From: Candidatus Obscuribacter phosphatis | Lineage (GTDB): Bacteria > Cyanobacteriota > Vampirovibrionia > Obscuribacterales > Obscuribacteraceae | DNA: 64,000 nucleotides | Assembly: GCA_001899315.1 (NCBI GenBank) | Contig: MOYA01000001.1 | Coordinates: 1 to 64,000 of the forward strand | Direction of reading: 5' to 3' | Part shown: positions 7,459 through 20,542 of the stretch, piece after piece | Layout of the letters: every line of letters starts with the position of its first letter | How positions within the stretch are numbered: position 1 is the stretch's first letter | The notes under the pieces: model-generated | Told to the model about the DNA's origin: nothing | The model's input: the letters and a program-made list of their open reading frames with translations, nothing else | The model's database searches: none | Made by a program: the position numbers and the translations under genes

Positions 7459-7488
7459 TTGACAGTGGCAACTCAGTCTCAGGATAAT
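7459..7488 (+). promoter_or_regulatory. Sigma70-type promoter of the CAU tRNA
   Basis: A perfect -35 TTGACA (7459-7464) and a -10 GATAAT (7483-7488) with 18-bp spacing. They lie 12 bp upstream of the mature tRNA 5' end. This is one of the best-matching promoters in the window. Confidence 0.8.
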
Positions 7489-7500
7489 CAATGATCACGT

Positions 7501-7574
7501 GGCACGGTAGCTCAGTAGGCTAGAGCGGGCGACTCATAACCGCCAGGTCGCGGGTTCGATTCCCGCCTGTGCCA
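7501..7574 (+). tRNA. tRNA with CAU anticodon (elongator Met or Ile2)
   Basis: Complete cloverleaf: acceptor GGCACGG/CTGTGCC, D-arm GCTC..GAGC, anticodon loop CTCATAA (anticodon CAT), T-arm GCGGGTTCGATTCCCGC, discriminator A. CCA is not encoded. G1-C72 pairs and the anticodon stem lacks the three G-C pairs of initiator tRNA, so it is not fMet. Elongator Met is likely; Ile2, whose C34 is modified by TilS, cannot be excluded. The A31-C39 position at the loop end is a mismatch. Confidence 0.93.
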
Positions 7575-7598
7575 TATTTTTGCAATAACAGCTTTGTC

Positions 7599-7630
7599 AG
7601 CAGCGCTCTTGCGGCGCTGCTATTGCTTTT
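7599..7630 (+). terminator. Rho-independent terminator after the tRNA
   Basis: Perfect 8-bp stem AGCAGCGC/GCGCTGCT (7599-7606/7614-7621) with a 7-nt loop, followed by ATTGCTTTT. It lies 25 bp after the tRNA and just before the end of the convergent TonB-like gene. Confidence 0.75.
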
Positions 7631-7648
7631 AAAGCGAGATTGGGCGGT

Positions 7649-8485
7649 TTAGCGCCCAGGCACAGTGTACTTTTCCACATCGCCGAACTTGAAAAATTCG
7701 CGGTCGCCGCGGTCTGAGGTGATGATCGTCGCTGTTTCGTTCACCCTCTGTCGCTTTGAGTTGCGGGGGAAACGAAGAATGGAGGTGCCGTCTAGGGCAT
7801 AGATGGCATCAAGCAGCGCTTTGTCATAGTCTGGATAGCCGGAAGGCTGCACTATTCGAGCCTTGACTATACGTTTATCGGCTGAGACCCTGACGAAAAA
7901 GGTGGCTTTGGTACCGAGGGGAATATTGGGACCCAAGACCACTCGCCCTCTTCTTGCATCCCACCGGGGTTCTACATTTTCAGGGCTATTGATTAACTCT
8001 TGCACTCCAGACTGTATAGACCAAAGCAGGCGGTTGTGCCATTTATCCCATTCCACCATCAGTTCTTGGTCTGCTGTATCGGGATCTTGAGCCTGTAGGT
8101 CTGATTCGCTCACTTGAGCCGAGCCTTTGAGCGGTCCGCCGTCCTGGTCGAGCTGCCCTTTCATAGGGTTCAGACCATCTTCTTCTGCTTGACCACTAAG
8201 TCCATTGCCTTGGTCTTCGATTCTGCCTTCTTTTGGCTTTTCTTTGACCACCGGTGCAAGCATCGGCACAGCCGGTCTGAAAGTCTGGCTCTCTGCCGCG
8301 CCGGTTTCTTCGACGCCACCTTTCAGGGTTTCTTGTGCCGATAGCGGCATCTCAGCCAATAAGCTCAAGCTCGCGGCCAGGGCCAGAAGCTTCAAGTTCG
8401 CCACTGGCTTGATTTTTTGGTCATACTCTGGTCTGCGATTCATCACTTGCCTGTATACTCTTGCCTTTGTAACTTTCTGCTTCAA
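7649..8485 (-). CDS. TonB C-terminal-domain-like exported protein
   Basis: 278 residues with a basic N-terminus and one hydrophobic segment (about 30-48, LKLLALAASLSLLAEM) reading as an anchor or signal. A Pro/Gly/acidic linker follows, then a C-terminal domain (about 190-265) with the TonB/TolA-like pattern KATFFVRVSADKRIVKARIV and SGYPDYDKALLDAI. TonB domains pass energy from the inner membrane to outer-membrane receptors, but many such proteins are not true TonB. No ExbB/ExbD genes lie nearby. ATGs at residues 1 and 15 are both possible starts. Confidence 0.6.
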   Translation of the reverse strand: MKQKVTKARVYRQVMNRRPEYDQKIKPVANLKLLALAASLSLLAEMPLSAQETLKGGVEETGAAESQTFRPAVPMLAPVVKEKPKEGRIEDQGNGLSGQAEEDGLNPMKGQLDQDGGPLKGSAQVSESDLQAQDPDTADQELMVEWDKWHNRLLWSIQSGVQELINSPENVEPRWDARRGRVVLGPNIPLGTKATFFVRVSADKRIVKARIVQPSGYPDYDKALLDAIYALDGTSILRFPRNSKRQRVNETATIITSDRGDREFFKFGDVEKYTVPGR

Positions 8486-13399: not shown

Positions 13400-14893
13400 G
13401 TGGCCGTTGTCCAAGAAAAAGAACTACTTTGTAAGGATTTCCTTTCCCGTCCCAAGCAACTCTTGATAGACGGAAAATGGGTAGATGCGGTATCCGGAAA
13501 AACTTTTGAAACAGTGAACCCGGCAACCGAAGAAGTACTTTGCCGTGTGGCTGAAGGTGGAAAGGAAGACGTAGATAAGGCTGTCAAAGCTGCTCGTCGC
13601 GCCTTTGAAGTTGGTCCCTGGCGCAAAATGAGCACTGCTGAGCGGGCTCGCCTCATGCTCAAGCTTGCCGACCTCATCGAAAAGCATGCCGATGAACTGG
13701 CTCAGATAGAGACCCTCGATAACGGTAAACCGATAACCGAATCCCGTTATGTCGATGTACCCCAGACTGTAGAAACCTTCCGCTATTACGCTGGTTGGGC
13801 TACCAAGCTGGAAGGCGAAACTATCAATGCCAACAGCAATTTCTTCACCTACACACTGAGAGAGCCTGTCGGTGTCGTTGGTCAGATCATTCCCTGGAAC
13901 TTCCCGATGCTGATGTTGGCTTGGAAGTGGGGACCAGCTCTGGCTGCCGGCAACACCATCGTGCTCAAGCCTGCTGAACAGACTCCTCTTTCGGCGCTCA
14001 GAATCGGTGAATTGGCTCTTGAAGCTGGTTTCCCTGAAGGCGTCATCAACATCGTTACCGGCTTTGGTGCCAATTCTGCTGGTGAAGCCATATCTCATCA
14101 TATGGACATCGACAAAGTTGCCTTCACTGGTGAAGACAAAACAGGCAAACTGATTGTGCAAGCTTCAACCACCAACCTCAAGAGAGTTTCGCTTGAATTG
14201 GGCGGTAAAGCTCCCAACATCGTTTTTGCTGATGCCGATATCGATGCCGCCGTTAAGGGCGCCATCACCGGCATCTTCTTTAACCAAGGACAAGTTTGCT
14301 GTGCTGGTTCCCGTCTATTTCTCGAGAAAAACATCCATGATGAATTCATGGCTAAGCTCACCGAGCGTGTAGCCAAACTGCGCCAAGGTGATGGTCTTGA
14401 TGATAAGACCCGCATCGGACCGCAGGTTTCAAAAGAGCAGCAAGAACGCGTTCTCAGCTATATCAATATTGCCAAAGGTGAAGGCGCCAGCCTCGCTTGC
14501 GGCGGCGAAGCGCCCGCCGAGCTCAAGAAAGGTTATTTCGTCAAACCGACAATCTTCACCGGTGTCAATAACGATATGCGTATCGCCCAAGAAGAGGTCT
14601 TTGGACCGGTTCTGGCTGTAATTCCTTTCTCCAACATGGAAGATGTCGCCGAGCAAGCCAACAAGACAACCTTCGGTCTTTCAGGCGCTGTCTGGACCCG
14701 CGACGTCAAGAAAGCCCATAAGTTCGCCTCTCACATCAAGGCTGGTACTGTTTGGGTCAACTGCTACAACGTCTTCGATCCGGCGGTTCCTTTCGGCGGC
14801 TACAAGATGTCCGGTTATGGTCGTGAACTCGGTAAGCATTCGATCGAGCTCTATACCAATATCAAATCGGTTTGGGTCAACATGCAAGATTGA
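13400..14893 (+). CDS. NAD(P)-dependent aldehyde dehydrogenase
   Basis: 497 residues, typical ALDH superfamily length. The catalytic cysteine is Cys300 in FNQGQVCCAGSR; the general base is Glu266 in LELGGK; the cofactor site includes IIPWNFPM and KPAEQTPLSA. It resembles the ALDH1/2-like broad-specificity enzymes that oxidise aldehydes to acids. The natural substrate is not determined by sequence. The GTG start at 13400 has CGGAGGG 8 bp upstream. A terminator follows directly, so it is probably monocistronic. Confidence 0.92.
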   Translation: MAVVQEKELLCKDFLSRPKQLLIDGKWVDAVSGKTFETVNPATEEVLCRVAEGGKEDVDKAVKAARRAFEVGPWRKMSTAERARLMLKLADLIEKHADELAQIETLDNGKPITESRYVDVPQTVETFRYYAGWATKLEGETINANSNFFTYTLREPVGVVGQIIPWNFPMLMLAWKWGPALAAGNTIVLKPAEQTPLSALRIGELALEAGFPEGVINIVTGFGANSAGEAISHHMDIDKVAFTGEDKTGKLIVQASTTNLKRVSLELGGKAPNIVFADADIDAAVKGAITGIFFNQGQVCCAGSRLFLEKNIHDEFMAKLTERVAKLRQGDGLDDKTRIGPQVSKEQQERVLSYINIAKGEGASLACGGEAPAELKKGYFVKPTIFTGVNNDMRIAQEEVFGPVLAVIPFSNMEDVAEQANKTTFGLSGAVWTRDVKKAHKFASHIKAGTVWVNCYNVFDPAVPFGGYKMSGYGRELGKHSIELYTNIKSVWVNMQD

Positions 14894-14934
14894 TTGTTCA
14901 GTTTGCTTGATTGCCACTAAGTCAGTTTCAAAAA

Positions 14935-14957
14935 GGGAGCCTTCGGGCTCCCTTTTT
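14935..14957 (+). terminator. Rho-independent terminator of the aldehyde dehydrogenase gene
   Basis: GGGAGCC, UUCG tetraloop, GGCTCCC, then TTTTT (14953-14957), with an upstream A run that makes it potentially bidirectional. Confidence 0.95.
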
Positions 14958-15079
14958 GATTAAATTAAGACGGTTTAACTTATTTTTGAGTCAATTAATT
15001 ATGAATTTCAGAGGGAAATGTTATGTTTTTCGGGGTTTTTTGATCTTAGTCTATTGAGAGATGTTCTCAGTAATCTGAC

Positions 15080-15095
15080 TCCCCCATTTGGGGGA
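15080..15095. promoter_or_regulatory. Perfect inverted repeat, possible operator
   Basis: TCCCCCA-TT-TGGGGGA, 7-bp arms around a 2-bp centre, 162 bp upstream of the -35 of the XRE-PAS gene. The symmetry fits a dimeric DNA-binding protein, such as the regulator itself, but nothing shows binding. Confidence 0.4.
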
Positions 15096-15256
15096 TGGTC
15101 GGCTGAAACTATTGCCCTGTAATGATTTTCGCTATTGCGGCCTATGCCGAAGTGATTCTTGCTCTAGTTCGAGTGATTGAAGAAAGGGTAGTTTAGGCTT
15201 CACGGCTGGCTTGAAAAAAGTGGCATTTTGCCTTTTCCTGCCTTGCTTTTTTCACC

Positions 15257-15286
15257 TTGATTAGGTTCCTACTGCTGACCTATACT
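15257..15286 (+). promoter_or_regulatory. Sigma70-like promoter of the XRE-PAS regulator
   Basis: -35 TTGATT (15257-15262), 18-bp spacer, -10 TATACT (15281-15286). Confidence 0.55.
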
Positions 15287-15434
15287 GGATAAACGTGGTT
15301 TTCATGTATCAGATTTTATTCTGCTCATGAAGTTTTGGTTGGTTGGTCCGGTTACTTACATCTAATTTTATAAAAGCCGCTGTTACAGGGTTTGGCGATG
15401 CACTGTGACGTTTGGATAGATTAGTGGAAGTGCC

Positions 15435-16121
15435 ATGAATAAGGCGGTCCCAGGAAATATGAGTATCAAAGAGTATATGGAGCCGGAAACCCTATTGAAG
15501 GGACTTTCCGAAACGATCAGATATCGCAGAAAGCTTCTAAAAATTAGTCAGGAAGACCTTTCTAAGAATGCCGGTTTTGCCCGGGGGTATTTGAGCGATA
15601 TTGAAAGAGGAGCCCGCAGCTTCAGCATTAAGAATCTGGCGCGTCTTTCAAACGTACTCAAGACAACTCCATCAGCCCTTTTAGCCACTACTGAGAAGCG
15701 AATAAAGGGAGGAAATGTCTATGCCGACTTTAGAGTCGACAGTCATCTGATTTTTGCCCTCCTGGGAAAGTCTGATAAGGCCTTAGTGATCATCGATACT
15801 AAAGAGGCCGACTTCCCAATTATCTATGTTTCCGACTCTTTTGCCGTAATATCGGGTTATTCCGGTGAAGAAGCCAAAGGGAGAAACTTTAGCTTCTTGC
15901 TCAGAGGCGAGCTTTATCAAGATGGGCTCAAGGCTATCTGTCTAGCGGTGGAAAACAAGACTTCTTGCGAGACCACTCTCAAGCTCTATCATAAAGATGG
16001 TAAAGAGGTTTTGTCTGTGGTGTCCACTTCGCCTGTGCTCGACGAGAATGGTGAAGTAACCCATGTGGTTTGTCTCTACCACGGCGCTCCGGTGGACCAA
16101 GGCGCTACAGCCGAGGCCTAA
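15435..16121 (+). CDS. XRE-family regulator with a LOV-like PAS domain
   Basis: 228 residues. Residues about 22-82 form a Cro/C1-type helix-turn-helix (LLKISQEDLSKNAGFARGYL). Residues about 105-218 are a PAS domain that aligns well with LOV photoreceptors, including NxxF-like context and GRNFSFLLRGEL at 149-160. The LOV signature is GRNCRFLQ; here the flavin-reactive Cys is Phe152, so the classical cysteinyl-flavin photocycle is not possible. It may still bind flavin or another ligand. It stands alone upstream of the purine operon, same strand, 286 bp apart; a role in purine control is only a guess. Confidence 0.8.
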   Translation: MNKAVPGNMSIKEYMEPETLLKGLSETIRYRRKLLKISQEDLSKNAGFARGYLSDIERGARSFSIKNLARLSNVLKTTPSALLATTEKRIKGGNVYADFRVDSHLIFALLGKSDKALVIIDTKEADFPIIYVSDSFAVISGYSGEEAKGRNFSFLLRGELYQDGLKAICLAVENKTSCETTLKLYHKDGKEVLSVVSTSPVLDENGEVTHVVCLYHGAPVDQGATAEA

Positions 16122-16329
16122 GCTCAGTCATTTATCTATTGAATATTGAATTTTTTGCCAAGCTGTCTCTGGCCTAGATTTTGGTTTTGGCTTGGTTTTC
16201 TTGCCCAAAATAAAATGTGCTCAAATTTAGCTGACAATCTTTTGCATTGGCTTGGAATTTCCTTCGCCTTCCCGTAACCTATTCGAATGAAAATAAAGAC
16301 GCTACAAACCTTGGATAAGAAAGTAGCGA

Positions 16330-16381
16330 TGACGGGAGTGGTGTGCCCCGTCAGATTCCTTTTACCGTCAGATTCCTTTTT
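16330..16381 (+). promoter_or_regulatory. purF leader: hairpin and two 17-bp direct repeats
   Basis: TGACGGG (16330-16336) pairs perfectly with CCCGTCA (16347-16353). A 17-bp sequence starting CCGTCAGATTCCTTTT is present twice in tandem (16348-16364, 16365-16381). The second copy offers an alternative partner for TGACGG, and T-rich DNA follows each. This could form alternative leader structures just before purF. It is not a match to the purine riboswitch pattern. Confidence 0.45.
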
Positions 16382-16407
16382 ATGGGTATGGAGATTCTAA
16401 AGAAGCT

Positions 16408-17922
16408 ATGTGCGGAATCGTGGCAATATCAGGCGGCTCTTGTGCTTCTTCAGAAGTTTTGTTGGGTCTGATGAATCTGCAGCATAGGGGGCAGGACGGG
16501 GCCGGAATTCTTTCTTTAGAAAAGAAAGAAAATGGTTCAGGCAATCATTTCCATCTAGACAAACAGTCAGGCCTTGTCTCTCTTGGTGACCTGGAAGATA
16601 AAGTCAGACATCGCAAAGACTCCTATGCTCTCGGTCATACCCGATATGCCACCGTCGGTGGTGATGCGGTTGAGATGCTGCAACCTTTTTTGATTGAGAA
16701 GTTCGGCATCGGGCTTGCTCATAATGGCAATATAGTAAATTTTCTTGATATGGAAGACGAACTATCGCGCGATTCGGCATTGCGCTTGTCTTCCGGGCGC
16801 TGGGTCCTCTCCGACTCCTTTATGTTGCTTGCTCAACTGGCTAGAACTCTAAGATGGCGCGACTGGAACAGTGGCGCCATTTTTGATGCTGTGCGTTCTG
16901 TGATGAGGAAAGCCTCGGGTAGCTTTTCGGTGGTCAGTCTGCTGGACAATGGCACTCTCTTTGGCTTTCGCGACCCCCATGGTATTAGACCGCTTTTCTG
17001 GGGCAGTCGTGCCGGAGAAGAGCGCACTGAGTACGGTATTGCCAGTGAGCCCGTGGCTCTTTCTTACTTGGGTTTTGATAGTATCACTGAAGTAAGAGCA
17101 GGTGAAGCTATCGTTGTCAGCCCTGATGGACAGTTCGAAGCTCGCATCATTGATGAGAAGCCAGTCAAGCAATGTATGTTCGAATGGGTTTATTTCTCAA
17201 GAGTAGAATCTGAGTTCGGCGGCAAATCTGTTTATGACGCGCGCTTTCGCCTTGGTGTAGAACTCGGCAAAAGAGTGAAAGAAATGGGCTTGGAAGCCGA
17301 CATAGTCGTGCCTGTGCCTGAGACCAGTCGGGTCTCGGCGATTGCGCTTGCTGAGTATCTCAATTTGCCTTTCCGCGAAGTTTTGGTGAAAAATCGCTAT
17401 GTCAACCGTACTTTCATATTAGATAGTCAGACCAGCAGGCAGGAAGCGATTAGACGCAAACTCTTTCCGATTGCTTCAGAATTTAGCGGCAAGCGCTGTA
17501 TGATTGTTGACGACAGTATTGTCAGAGGCAATACTGCTAGACAGATTACCCATCTGGTGCGCGAGTCCGGCGCCAGTGAAGTGACTTTGCTTTCGGCCTG
17601 TCCTTCTATTTCTTATCCTTGTTTTTATGGCATTGACTTTCCCGACAAAGCCGAACTCTTGGCCGGTCACCTCGACAACGAGGCAATTTGTACCGAACTT
17701 GGGGCCGATAGAGTTATCTTTCAGACTATCGAGGGTCTAAGCTCTGCCATTGGTTCAAATGATCTTTGCACCGGTTGCCTGACTGGTACTTATCCCACCG
17801 ACGTCGCTCTTGCCGATCGCTTCGCTGCTAAGCGCAAGGTCGATAGGCTTGCAGAGGGAGAAGCACCGTCGGTGGTGTCGAACGCATCAAAGTCTAAGTC
17901 GAAAGACAGCCGGAGGAGTTGA
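16408..17922 (+). CDS. purF: Amidophosphoribosyltransferase
   Basis: First step of purine synthesis: PRPP plus glutamine gives phosphoribosylamine. Cys2 (MCGIVAI) is the N-terminal glutamine-amidotransferase nucleophile, with no propeptide. The PRPP loop VDDSIVRGNT is at 367-376. Cysteines 256, 405, 454 and 457 (KQCMFE, YPCFYG, LCTGC) fall where the Bacillus-type enzyme binds a 4Fe-4S cluster, so this PurF is probably the oxygen-sensitive Fe-S type. 504 residues. First gene of the purine operon; the following purC start overlaps closely. The ribosome binding site is weak. Confidence 0.95.
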   Translation: MCGIVAISGGSCASSEVLLGLMNLQHRGQDGAGILSLEKKENGSGNHFHLDKQSGLVSLGDLEDKVRHRKDSYALGHTRYATVGGDAVEMLQPFLIEKFGIGLAHNGNIVNFLDMEDELSRDSALRLSSGRWVLSDSFMLLAQLARTLRWRDWNSGAIFDAVRSVMRKASGSFSVVSLLDNGTLFGFRDPHGIRPLFWGSRAGEERTEYGIASEPVALSYLGFDSITEVRAGEAIVVSPDGQFEARIIDEKPVKQCMFEWVYFSRVESEFGGKSVYDARFRLGVELGKRVKEMGLEADIVVPVPETSRVSAIALAEYLNLPFREVLVKNRYVNRTFILDSQTSRQEAIRRKLFPIASEFSGKRCMIVDDSIVRGNTARQITHLVRESGASEVTLLSACPSISYPCFYGIDFPDKAELLAGHLDNEAICTELGADRVIFQTIEGLSSAIGSNDLCTGCLTGTYPTDVALADRFAAKRKVDRLAEGEAPSVVSNASKSKSKDSRRS

Positions 17923-17924
17923 AG

Positions 17925-19148
17925 ATGGTGGTTGGAGAGGAAATCGCACCGATTTATCGAGGCTCGGTCAAAGATGTTTATGCCAGTGGCGAAAACTTAC
18001 TCTTTCATTTCTCTGATGATTTCTCGGTTTTCGACTGGGGCAAAATGCCAGATCGCATTGAGGGCAAAGGGCGCTCACTGGCTCTCTTTGCCGCTAGTGT
18101 ATTTGAGCAGCTTGATGGCAAATTGTTTGCCGACTTGCCCAATTCTCGTCATTTGAAGCATTTTGACAGCAAGTTTTTGCAAGACTTGTTTGGCGGCGAT
18201 TTGTATAAAAAAGAGCTGGCTGTAAACGGCATGAGCAGTCACTACCGGGGGTTGAACTGGGGCGGGCGACTGGGCAAAGTTTCGCAGTACTTGGAAGCAT
18301 TTCGCTCGGGTGAGACCGATAGCGAACCTTTGTATCTAGAGGTGGATAAGGCTCTGGTGCAGCGCCCTGAGCTCAGGCAGATTGGTGGTGAATCGGTCTA
18401 TTTTTATCCTGCAGCAGAGAATGCCCCCTTGCGCTTTATACCGCTTGAAATTGTTTTTCGCTTTGGTGTGCCGCAAGGCAGCTCATTGCTTAGCCGCTTA
18501 GCCCACGATCCTGCCCTACCGGCTCGCCTGGGCTTGTCCCTTCCTTCCTCTGAGATCAAAGCCGGTGTAGTGTTTGACAGACCGGTTATTGAGTTTTTTA
18601 CCAAATTAGAGTCTTCCGATCGGCTGCTTAGTTATCAGGAAGCATCTTTGATTTCAGGTCTTTCCGCCACTGCCTTTCATAGGCTTTATCAAACTGCCCA
18701 ATTTGTCTCTCTTGCTTTGTATCATCTCTTCGCCGAAGCCGGCGGACAGAACTTGCACCTATTAGATGGTAAGGTTGAGGCGGCTTATCGTCAGGCTGAC
18801 GGTGCCATTGTTCTTGCAGATAGTGTCGGACCAGACGAGCTTAGACTTTCATATAACGGGGTGCAACTTTCGAAGGAAGCTTTGCGTCTCTATTATCGCC
18901 AAACAGATTGGTTCAACAAAATTGAAGCGGCTAAGAAAGAAGTTCGCCCCCATGGCGTCACCTGGCAGAAAGTAATGAAAGAGCGCGGTGACAAGCCGCC
19001 AGCTTTGCCGGCTGATCTCAAGGAAACTATGGCATGCATGTACAAGAGTCTGGCTCTTGGGCTTGTTGGTATCGATGAAGCAGAGAAACAGAGCCGTTTC
19101 AGTTTGCCAAGCCTTTCTGCTATTGCTTCCAAACTGGAGAAGCTATGA
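17925..19148 (+). CDS. purC: Phosphoribosylaminoimidazole-succinocarboxamide (SAICAR) synthase
   Basis: Joins aspartate to CAIR. The N-terminal YRGSVKDVYASGENLLFHFSD and GKGRSLALFA correspond to the conserved nucleotide-binding start of PurC. Its 407 residues exceed the usual 240-300, with extra sequence in the C-terminal half. ATG 17925 has GGAGG upstream inside the purF end; an in-frame TTG at 17919 overlaps the purF stop. Its end overlaps purD by 4 bp (ATGA type). Confidence 0.85.
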   Translation: MVVGEEIAPIYRGSVKDVYASGENLLFHFSDDFSVFDWGKMPDRIEGKGRSLALFAASVFEQLDGKLFADLPNSRHLKHFDSKFLQDLFGGDLYKKELAVNGMSSHYRGLNWGGRLGKVSQYLEAFRSGETDSEPLYLEVDKALVQRPELRQIGGESVYFYPAAENAPLRFIPLEIVFRFGVPQGSSLLSRLAHDPALPARLGLSLPSSEIKAGVVFDRPVIEFFTKLESSDRLLSYQEASLISGLSATAFHRLYQTAQFVSLALYHLFAEAGGQNLHLLDGKVEAAYRQADGAIVLADSVGPDELRLSYNGVQLSKEALRLYYRQTDWFNKIEAAKKEVRPHGVTWQKVMKERGDKPPALPADLKETMACMYKSLALGLVGIDEAEKQSRFSLPSLSAIASKLEKL

Positions 19149-20542
19149 ATAGTGCAAAAGCTAGAGTGTTGGTGCTTGGCTCCGGCGGTAGGGAGCATGC
19201 CCTCGCCTGGAAGTTGGCGCAGAGCCCCCAAGTCTCCCATGTTTGGGTTAGCCCAGGCAATGCCGGCACAGCCGGCATTGCCGATCTAGATAAATCTGCC
19301 GGCACAGCCGGCATTGCCGATCTAGATAAATCTGCCGGCACAGCCGGCATTGCCGATCTAGATAAATCTGCCGGCACAGCCGATCTAGACAAATCCGCTC
19401 AGCTAGCCAATCTGCAGCTGCAATCTCATGATGAGATCGTTGCTTTTGCCAAGAACAACACTATCGATTTGGTGGTGGTGGGACCGGAAGGTTATTTGAA
19501 GGATGGCATTGTCGATAAGCTCAATGCCGCCGGTATTCTTGCTTTTGGACCGACCGCCGAGGAGTCGCGTCTAGAGTGGTCGAAAGCCCATGCCAAAGAA
19601 CTTATGCTCCAGCTCTCGGTGCCCACAGCAGCCTTCAAGGTAGCTGAAAGCCCAGAGCAGGCGATTGAGTTTTTAGAAAAAGACGAGCGGCTGCGAGTGG
19701 TTAAGTATGACGGACTGGCTGCCGGCAAGGGCGTTTTCGTTGTTGATAGCCTTGCTGAAGCAATCGATGCCGTCCATGAAATTAAGAAGGGTCAGAAAGA
19801 TTTCAAGGTTGTGCTGGAAGAGAAGTTGTTTGGCGAAGAGCTTTCACTTTTTTGTCTTTGCGACGGCAAAAAACTTTTACCGCTGGCGGTCAGTCAAGAT
19901 CACAAAAGAAGATTTGAAGGTGATCTGGGACCGAATACTGGGGGGATGGGCGCTTACTTACCGGTTGCTGCATATGATCAGAGTCTTGCCGATATTGTTC
20001 AAGAGAACATTATTGCCAGACTGGAACAAGGTCTGCGGCATGGTGTCTATACCTTTAAGGGACTGCTCTTTATTGGCTTATTGCTTGATGCCGAGAAAGG
20101 CGTCAATGTTTTGGAATTCAATACTCGCTTTGGCGACCCTGAGACTGAGGCTGTCTTGCCTCTTTTGCAAGATGACCTCTACGTTCTTCTTAGGGCCTGT
20201 GCCGAGGGGCGACTGGCGGAAGCGCCTCCTCGCCTAAGCAATAAGGCCAGTGTCACAGTCATTGCGGTCACCGAAAACTATCCGGCTCAGTCTTCTTACG
20301 GTGTGCCCATTAAGATAGGCACCATACCTGAGGGGGTCACACTCTTTCACTGCGGTACCGCCATAAAAGACGGTGTTGTGGTGACAAACGGTGGTCGTAT
20401 ATTAGCACCGACGGCGGTGGCTGATTCGGTGCCGGAAGCAAGGGCTCTGGCTTTGGCAGCCTTGAAAGAAATTGATTTTGCCGGGCTATCCTATCGGACC
20501 GATATAGCCAAGCGAGGTGGACTGTGCCGCTCAAACTCTTAG
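19145..20542 (+). CDS. purD: Phosphoribosylamine-glycine ligase with an internal minisatellite
   Basis: ATP-grasp ligase making GAR from phosphoribosylamine and glycine. VLGSGGREHALAWKL at the start and SPGNAGTAG belong to the N domain; KYDGLAAGKGVF and GPNTGGMGAY belong to the ATP-grasp core. Between SPGNAG and the next conserved strand lies a run of about 45 residues made of a 12-residue unit (GTAGIADLDKSA) repeated almost four times. The 36-bp unit keeps the frame. The insertion replaces a surface loop of normal PurD, so the enzyme should remain active. 465 residues against about 425 in the family. Confidence 0.93.
   Translation: MNSAKARVLVLGSGGREHALAWKLAQSPQVSHVWVSPGNAGTAGIADLDKSAGTAGIADLDKSAGTAGIADLDKSAGTADLDKSAQLANLQLQSHDEIVAFAKNNTIDLVVVGPEGYLKDGIVDKLNAAGILAFGPTAEESRLEWSKAHAKELMLQLSVPTAAFKVAESPEQAIEFLEKDERLRVVKYDGLAAGKGVFVVDSLAEAIDAVHEIKKGQKDFKVVLEEKLFGEELSLFCLCDGKKLLPLAVSQDHKRRFEGDLGPNTGGMGAYLPVAAYDQSLADIVQENIIARLEQGLRHGVYTFKGLLFIGLLLDAEKGVNVLEFNTRFGDPETEAVLPLLQDDLYVLLRACAEGRLAEAPPRLSNKASVTVIAVTENYPAQSSYGVPIKIGTIPEGVTLFHCGTAIKDGVVVTNGGRILAPTAVADSVPEARALALAALKEIDFAGLSYRTDIAKRGGLCRSNS
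19261..19398 (+). repeat. 36-bp tandem repeat inside purD (3.8 copies)
   Basis: Three identical 36-bp units (19261-19296, 19297-19332, 19333-19368) and a 30-bp partial unit lacking one GGCATT-like hexamer. Each begins TGCCGGCACAGCCGGC, itself rich in self-complementary GCCGGC. Confidence 0.95.

Follow-up and report, generated by a model that had tools for sequence, protein, structure and literature searches.

An XRE-type regulator with a LOV-type PAS domain and a replaced flavin site in Candidatus Obscuribacter phosphatis

One-component regulators that couple a LOV sensor to a helix-turn-helix (HTH) domain are known in print, as an initial annotation of the locus described here had pointed out. 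Bacterial examples are few; the sections of a 2014 review available to us count eight (0.6%) (PMC4844311). In the same sections, EL222 appears as a photoactive one-component protein made of a LOV-type sensor and an HTH. Natural LOV-like domains that lack the adduct cysteine have been discussed, in the accessible part of another source, as flavin redox sensors and as models of LOV ancestry (PMC4682037). There, a list from Yee et al. 2015 defines natural Cys-less LOV domains by nine residues, and the filter demanded at least nine of the other conserved LOV residues (the text says 10, the list names 9). The halobacterial bacterio-opsin activator BAT carries a Cys-less LOV-like domain (BAT-LOV*) within an HTH regulator; by the same partial account, this domain passed the LOV-residue filter and binds flavin (PMC4682037). 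Finally, W619_1-LOV is described in excerpts of its report as a domain that was crystallised without flavin, with a LOV fold that is stable flavin-free, and that retains the flavin residues and binds flavins (PMC5314338).

Here, we analyse an HTH regulator from Candidatus Obscuribacter phosphatis whose LOV-type PAS domain, judged by its residues, fails the published criteria both for a LOV and for a Cys-less LOV*. The host order, Obscuribacterales, comprises non-photosynthetic sisters of cyanobacteria. The window is a stretch of 64,000 nucleotides (contig MOYA01000001.1, positions 1 to 64,000), and the genus comparison covers three genomes, G000 (the window genome), G001 and G002, in which two of the three orthologues are near-identical. 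The frame reported initially, 15435-16121 on the plus strand, is open and encodes 228 residues, but its start is doubtful. In G002, the frame begins 8 codons downstream of the equivalent of ATG 15435, giving 220 amino acids, and in G001 the residues ahead of the methionine equivalent to ATG 15459 are unrelated to the window frame. As ATG 15435 is supported by neither genome, and AGGAA precedes ATG 15459, the latter is probably the start, rather than the first in-frame ATG, and the gene would span 15459..16121 (+; 220 aa). The G001 frame is open up to its terminal stop. The Obscuribacterales MAG JAIETF010000049.1 is a near relative, at 95% identity.

Residues are numbered here along the 228-residue frame. 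The fusion of an XRE domain to a PAS domain, as first annotated, is borne out by Pfam, with both parts above their cut-offs. The Cro/C1-XRE DNA-binding domain (15516..15674, +; residues 28-80) matches HTH_3 (PF01381) with 47.6 bits against a cut-off of 23 (E 1.7e-12), and the AlphaFold2 model places helices over residues 17-90. The LOV-type PAS domain (15747..16082, +; residues 105-216) is supported by sequence and fold matches in the PDB and by PAS_9 (residues 124-214; 51.5 bits against a cut-off of 27, E 1.3e-13). The model has a mean pLDDT of 86.1 and a pTM of 0.60, and the blocks spanning residues 111-210 reach mean pLDDT values of 88-96. The N-terminal position of the XRE domain sets the protein apart from BAT, a long multi-domain protein with a C-terminal HTH, and from EL222, whose HTH is C-terminal and of the LuxR type.

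By sequence comparison, the kinship of this PAS domain with LOV domains is far above chance, because its best matches in a PDB sequence search are LOV domains (8c05, E 7e-16, no gaps across the motif). Foldseek, run on the AlphaFold2 model, returned LOV chains first, and the 50 fold matches listed by VIA-align are all LOV domains (best Z 16.1, 122 residues, 3.3 A), so that no better match to a non-LOV PAS family emerged from either the sequence or the fold matches. The fold matches are not independent evidence, since the input alignment for AlphaFold2 contained many LOV sequences, which would favour a LOV-like model. In NCBIfam, the best partial match was to the equivalog YtvA_fam (NF052652), whose 58.3 bits lie well below the 250-bit whole-protein cut-off.

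For closer comparison, 56 LOVs were chosen by similarity to a canonical LOV, and the Cys-less domains L004-L007 from other bacteria were not counted among them. One of these, L004:6001-6297, is a PAS domain in a Pseudoduganella aquatica GGDEF/EAL protein with GRSTRLLHG at the LOV motif and 4/9 residues retained, and is thus a further LOV-like domain without the cysteine and with an altered flavin site. From the 34 PAS_9 matches in the window genome, the query, L117, L121 and four without loci were dropped; 27 were read, and 26 served as non-LOV PAS domains, L092 being a canonical LOV kinase. The Abeta-Bbeta segment is 21 residues long in all 56 canonical LOVs and in the three orthologues, and 18 residues long in 25 of the 26 other PAS domains. 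The salt-bridge pair of YtvA-LOV is retained as E146 and K187, which are invariant in the alignment; the pair, E56-K97, is described as structural in the part of the YtvA study at hand (PMC4041573). The domain thus shares its fold, loop length, GRN and FL residues and the Glu-Lys salt-bridge residues with canonical LOVs such as YtvA, phototropin LOV2 and the short LOVs.

In contrast, it differs from them in lacking the adduct cysteine and in the replacement of five of the nine diagnostic flavin residues. The initial annotation had the domain following the LOV pattern closely, which is true of the fold positions and fails at the flavin contacts. The motif GRNFSFL, correctly read there in place of the GRNCRFL of LOVs, lies at 15879..15899 (+; residues 149-155). 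Phe152 (codon 15888-15890, +) occupies the position of the adduct cysteine, which is Cys in 56/56 comparison LOVs, and its neighbour Ser153 that of Arg63 in YtvA. As had been suggested for checking, we asked whether Phe is common to all orthologues; it is present in all three genus genomes, and the sole other full-length XRE-LOV found has Cys.

Among the nine residues (YtvA numbering), G59, N61, F64 and L65 are retained in the three orthologues; R63 is replaced by Ser, Q66 by Leu, N94 by Leu or Ile, N104 by Ser or Gly, and Q123 by Tyr, likewise in all three. Canonical LOVs keep nine of nine in 50 cases and eight in the other six. Outside this list, the flavin-phosphate arginine position is Cys169 (codon 15939..15941, +) in 3/3 orthologues and Arg, Lys or His in the 56 canonical LOVs. 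This position presumably corresponds to R467 of AsLOV2 and R79 of YtvA. In every genome of the genus, the changes thus affect the two isoalloxazine asparagines, the two glutamines and a pair of arginine sites. Beyond these, the asparagine of the DNP motif, present in 47/56 canonical LOVs, is Phe127 in the window protein. The XRE-LOV of G034, a genome of the same family, has a domain order identical to that of the window protein and keeps 9/9 flavin residues together with the cysteine.

Since the fold is retained and the cofactor site replaced, the simplest reading is that the domain most likely binds no flavin, though the substitutions might compensate one another. Such compensation is conceivable because the published mutations were tested singly and some were tolerated: in deep mutational scanning of YtvA-LOV C62A, the available text reports loss of flavin fluorescence for each of Q66L, N94I and N94S, whereas N104S and Q123L remain functional (PMC4041573). 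At the Gln123 position, the window protein has the large aromatic Tyr215; natural LOVs without this glutamine largely avoid large aromatics there, according to the portion of the source consulted (PMC9098866). Described systems differ from the window protein, as far as those partial sources reach: EL222 is photoactive (PMC4844311), with the flavin site gone in the window protein, BAT-LOV* passed the filter that the window PAS fails (PMC4682037), and W619_1-LOV retains residues that the window protein lacks (PMC5314338). Domains like this one would escape the published searches, because their filters, in the text accessible to us, demanded flavin-site residues (PMC4682037). A Cys-less LOV-like motif alone is therefore not evidence for a flavoprotein.

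We propose that the gene encodes what is probably a light-blind one-component transcription regulator, in which a LOV-type PAS domain, most likely flavin-free, serves as dimerisation and sensing module. The N-terminal XRE domain would bind DNA, as a predicted dimer if it follows its family, and the PAS domain would shift the HTH geometry when a non-flavin agent occupies or modifies the old pocket. From sequence we infer light-independence, flavin absence, dimerisation and regulation of nearby genes alike. Light-independence, one of the suggestions made at the outset, gains support from Phe152 and from the replaced flavin contacts in all three orthologues. A ligand or thiol sensor is possible: the input might come from a small hydrophobic ligand or from thiol chemistry involving Cys169 and Cys213, or there may be none, with the PAS acting as a dimeriser. 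The domain offers a case for studying how a LOV-type domain may leave flavin use.

Whether the domain ever used flavin depends on its position relative to the LOVs. A phylogeny of 90 domains contains a group (95/84) that unites the three orthologues with all LOVs, the XRE-LOV and one further domain lacking the cysteine; the stem of the orthologues measures 2.27 changes per site. The AU tests do not decide between a place inside and a place beside the LOV clade, and descent by loss from a working LOV is therefore not proven. If the PAS domain belonged to a lineage sister to the LOVs, it would never have bound flavin, its likeness would be due to descent only, and its ligand-sensing function would be as proposed above. 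This scenario is permitted by the AU test, in which canonical LOVs as a clade without the window domain are 0.39 lnL lower (p 0.478), and Cys-less L004-L007 sit just outside or beside the LOVs in the tree. The window PAS, however, has the 21-residue LOV loop, whereas L005-L007 have 18 residues and L004 has 20. Joining the domain to the XRE-LOV of G034 gave a tree 0.42 lnL above the free tree (p 0.552), and the two proteins have the rare XRE and LOV order in common. We consider the sister lineage an unlikely but serious contender.

PAS domains often dimerise, and in another alternative the domain has no sensing role and serves purely for constitutive dimerisation. The pocket positions are occupied by Phe127, Phe152, Leu156, Leu184 and Tyr215, which possibly leave little room; the strong conservation of the PAS is compatible with this reading as much as with sensing, and we hold pure dimerisation to be improbable, albeit worth keeping in mind.

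A more specific proposal is a thiol-redox sensor, in which the pocket cysteines Cys169 and Cys213, both new to the lineage, would act with Cys178 in place of flavin, through a disulfide or by binding either a metal or an electrophile. All three cysteines are present in 3/3 orthologues. The 56 canonical LOVs have Arg/Lys/His at position 169 and Gly/Ala at position 213; Cys178 also occurs in 24 of them. Against this, the sample comprises just three orthologues, of which two are near-identical, and cysteines can be structural. We rate the thiol sensor as doubtful. An evolutionary version, in which this genus converted an XRE-LOV light switch into a flavin-free sensor, retained by strong selection for a different input, and the old pocket, with its lineage-specific Cys169 and Cys213, serves as thiol switch or ligand site, is likewise tentative and on balance rather improbable. 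If true, it would document a photoreceptor domain that left photoreception while its regulator survived. An iron-sulfur cluster was set aside, as there are just three cysteines.

The initial annotation had suggested a light-independent redox or ligand sensor, or photoreduction without adduct formation. The flavin-based readings among these are disfavoured because the flavin contacts are largely missing, as the alignment it called for reveals at Q66, N94, N104, Q123, R63 and R79. If it were a natural LOV* flavoprotein without the cysteine, comparable to BAT-LOV*, the domain would bind FMN or FAD and signal via chemical reduction or photoreduction to the neutral semiquinone. The LOV fold and kinship speak for this, as do the retained GRN asparagine and two motif hydrophobics, and BAT-LOV* shows, in the text available, that an HTH regulator can carry a LOV without the cysteine (PMC4682037). 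But the domain keeps four of nine residues where that filter, as given there, asked for at least nine, and the glutamine that reads N5 protonation is Tyr. Furthermore, Q66L alone or N94I alone abolishes function in the YtvA-LOV scanning data cited above (PMC4041573, in part), and Ser and Cys stand at the two arginine positions. Altogether this makes a flavoprotein very unlikely.

PAS domains that bind heme have the same fold, and heme binding is conceivable for some XRE-PAS regulators, but a FixL-type heme sensor has a negligible chance and was rejected, as no PAS histidine is conserved among the three orthologues (G001 has P, C, Y and Q at positions 104, 186, 210 and 216).

The preferred reading, a light-blind regulator, presupposes a functional gene. 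Between G000 and G002, dN/dS is 0.015 for the PAS codons and 0.011 for the HTH codons, and neighbouring housekeeping genes range from 0.008 to 0.126; only this pair was used because synonymous sites between G000 and G001 are saturated for the PAS part. These ratios indicate strong purifying selection, which means that the gene is not decaying; a pseudogene is excluded by dN/dS and by its presence in all three genomes of the genus.

The gene stands singly between an aldehyde dehydrogenase gene and purF-purC-purD-purN-purL, and this gene order is maintained in the three genomes. Downstream of the aldehyde dehydrogenase gene lies a perfect inverted repeat with 14-nt arms and a 4-nt loop (14928..14959), a probable terminator separating the two genes; this reading rests on the repeat itself, as a terminator scan of the region reported none. 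Inverted repeats in the flanks of the XRE-PAS gene are few. A likely promoter, TTGATT-18-TATACT, is found at 15257..15286 (+). Its -10 element falls within CTGACCTATACTG, the sole upstream block of at least 7 bases that is identical in 3/3 genus genomes, and the region contains five promoter-like sites against a shuffled mean of 1.7. The gene therefore likely has its own conserved promoter region. A riboswitch search over 14850-16450 gave no match at the gathering score.

The gene precedes purF (16408..17922, +; TIGR01134), the first of the purine genes, in all three genomes. At the other 27 of the 30 purF loci examined, no XRE-PAS gene was found upstream, and the association is therefore genus-specific and weak; control of the purine genes was set aside as a weak lead. 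At 26 of these 27 loci, purC adjoins purF (L150 stops at a contig edge). A conserved block is present upstream of purF, and no tie to the regulator was made. Further along, the purD frame (19145-20542) contains, close to the N-terminus, a tandem run of AGTAGIADLDKS-type repeats that looks like an in-frame expansion.

Within the family, a search with the XRE-LOV of G034 (P0004, L068:8198-8830; G034:C262:91197-91826) at E <= 1e-20 gave matches in 33 of 50 genomes. Full-length proteins with XRE and a LOV-type PAS occur in four of the 50, the three of the genus and G034. Most other matches are LOV domains in frames of ~360-470 residues, and those read fully are histidine kinases. The window genome itself encodes a canonical LOV kinase (G000:C1:1731901-1732230), so the cell retains LOV sensing as such. 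G017 contains one XRE with an ordinary PAS. In 386 genomes of the phylum, where at most eight candidates were scored per genome and an XRE-LOV may be missed, the 24 matches listed at E <= 1e-28 all begin at query residue 83 or later and so cover the LOV only. Three plasmid records cover at least 80% of the XRE-LOV of G034; two plasmid loci were inspected, one of them belonging to these three, and both encode LOV kinases in which the N-terminal "HTH" match does not represent a domain. Viral contigs matched only the HTH part. Open-licence PMC literature yielded no XRE-LOV fusion, LOV domain and XRE co-occurring in one paper, as separate proteins, and no report joining Obscuribacter and LOV.

A shared origin of the window XRE-PAS and the XRE-LOV of G034, which are 34% identical over their length, is possible: the PAS tree allows it and the HTH tree leans against it. 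In the latter, the three orthologues join HTH-only proteins of G027 and G006 (94/82), and a four-protein clade with G034 is 4.90 lnL worse (AU p 0.09). With the HTH tree against it and no synteny between the two loci, orthology is unsupported. The HTH-only proteins (L122:7544-7816 in G027; L123 near 7465-7710 in G006) are the closest in the HTH, at 48-51% identity, and lie on contigs without purF.

The two proteins also differ in their surroundings. The window gene adjoins purine genes, whereas that of G034, with its intact flavin site, adjoins carotenoid, retinal and rhodopsin genes. A flavin-less XRE-PAS and an intact XRE-LOV from the same family would form a natural matched pair for biochemistry. 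The G034 neighbours are crtI, a Blh-type beta-carotene dioxygenase, lycopene cyclase, phytoene synthase and a microbial rhodopsin (L068:8914-14771, L166:593-3678), and the XRE-LOV is a candidate blue-light regulator of this retinal/rhodopsin cluster in non-photosynthetic relatives of cyanobacteria. The window genome yielded neither a beta-carotene dioxygenase nor a rhodopsin, and among the papers listed by a literature search none had both Melainabacteria and rhodopsin in its title or abstract. Three of the 50 family genomes, G013, G034 and G070, combine microbial rhodopsin with Blh genes (L163, L164, L165; L167, L168, L169).
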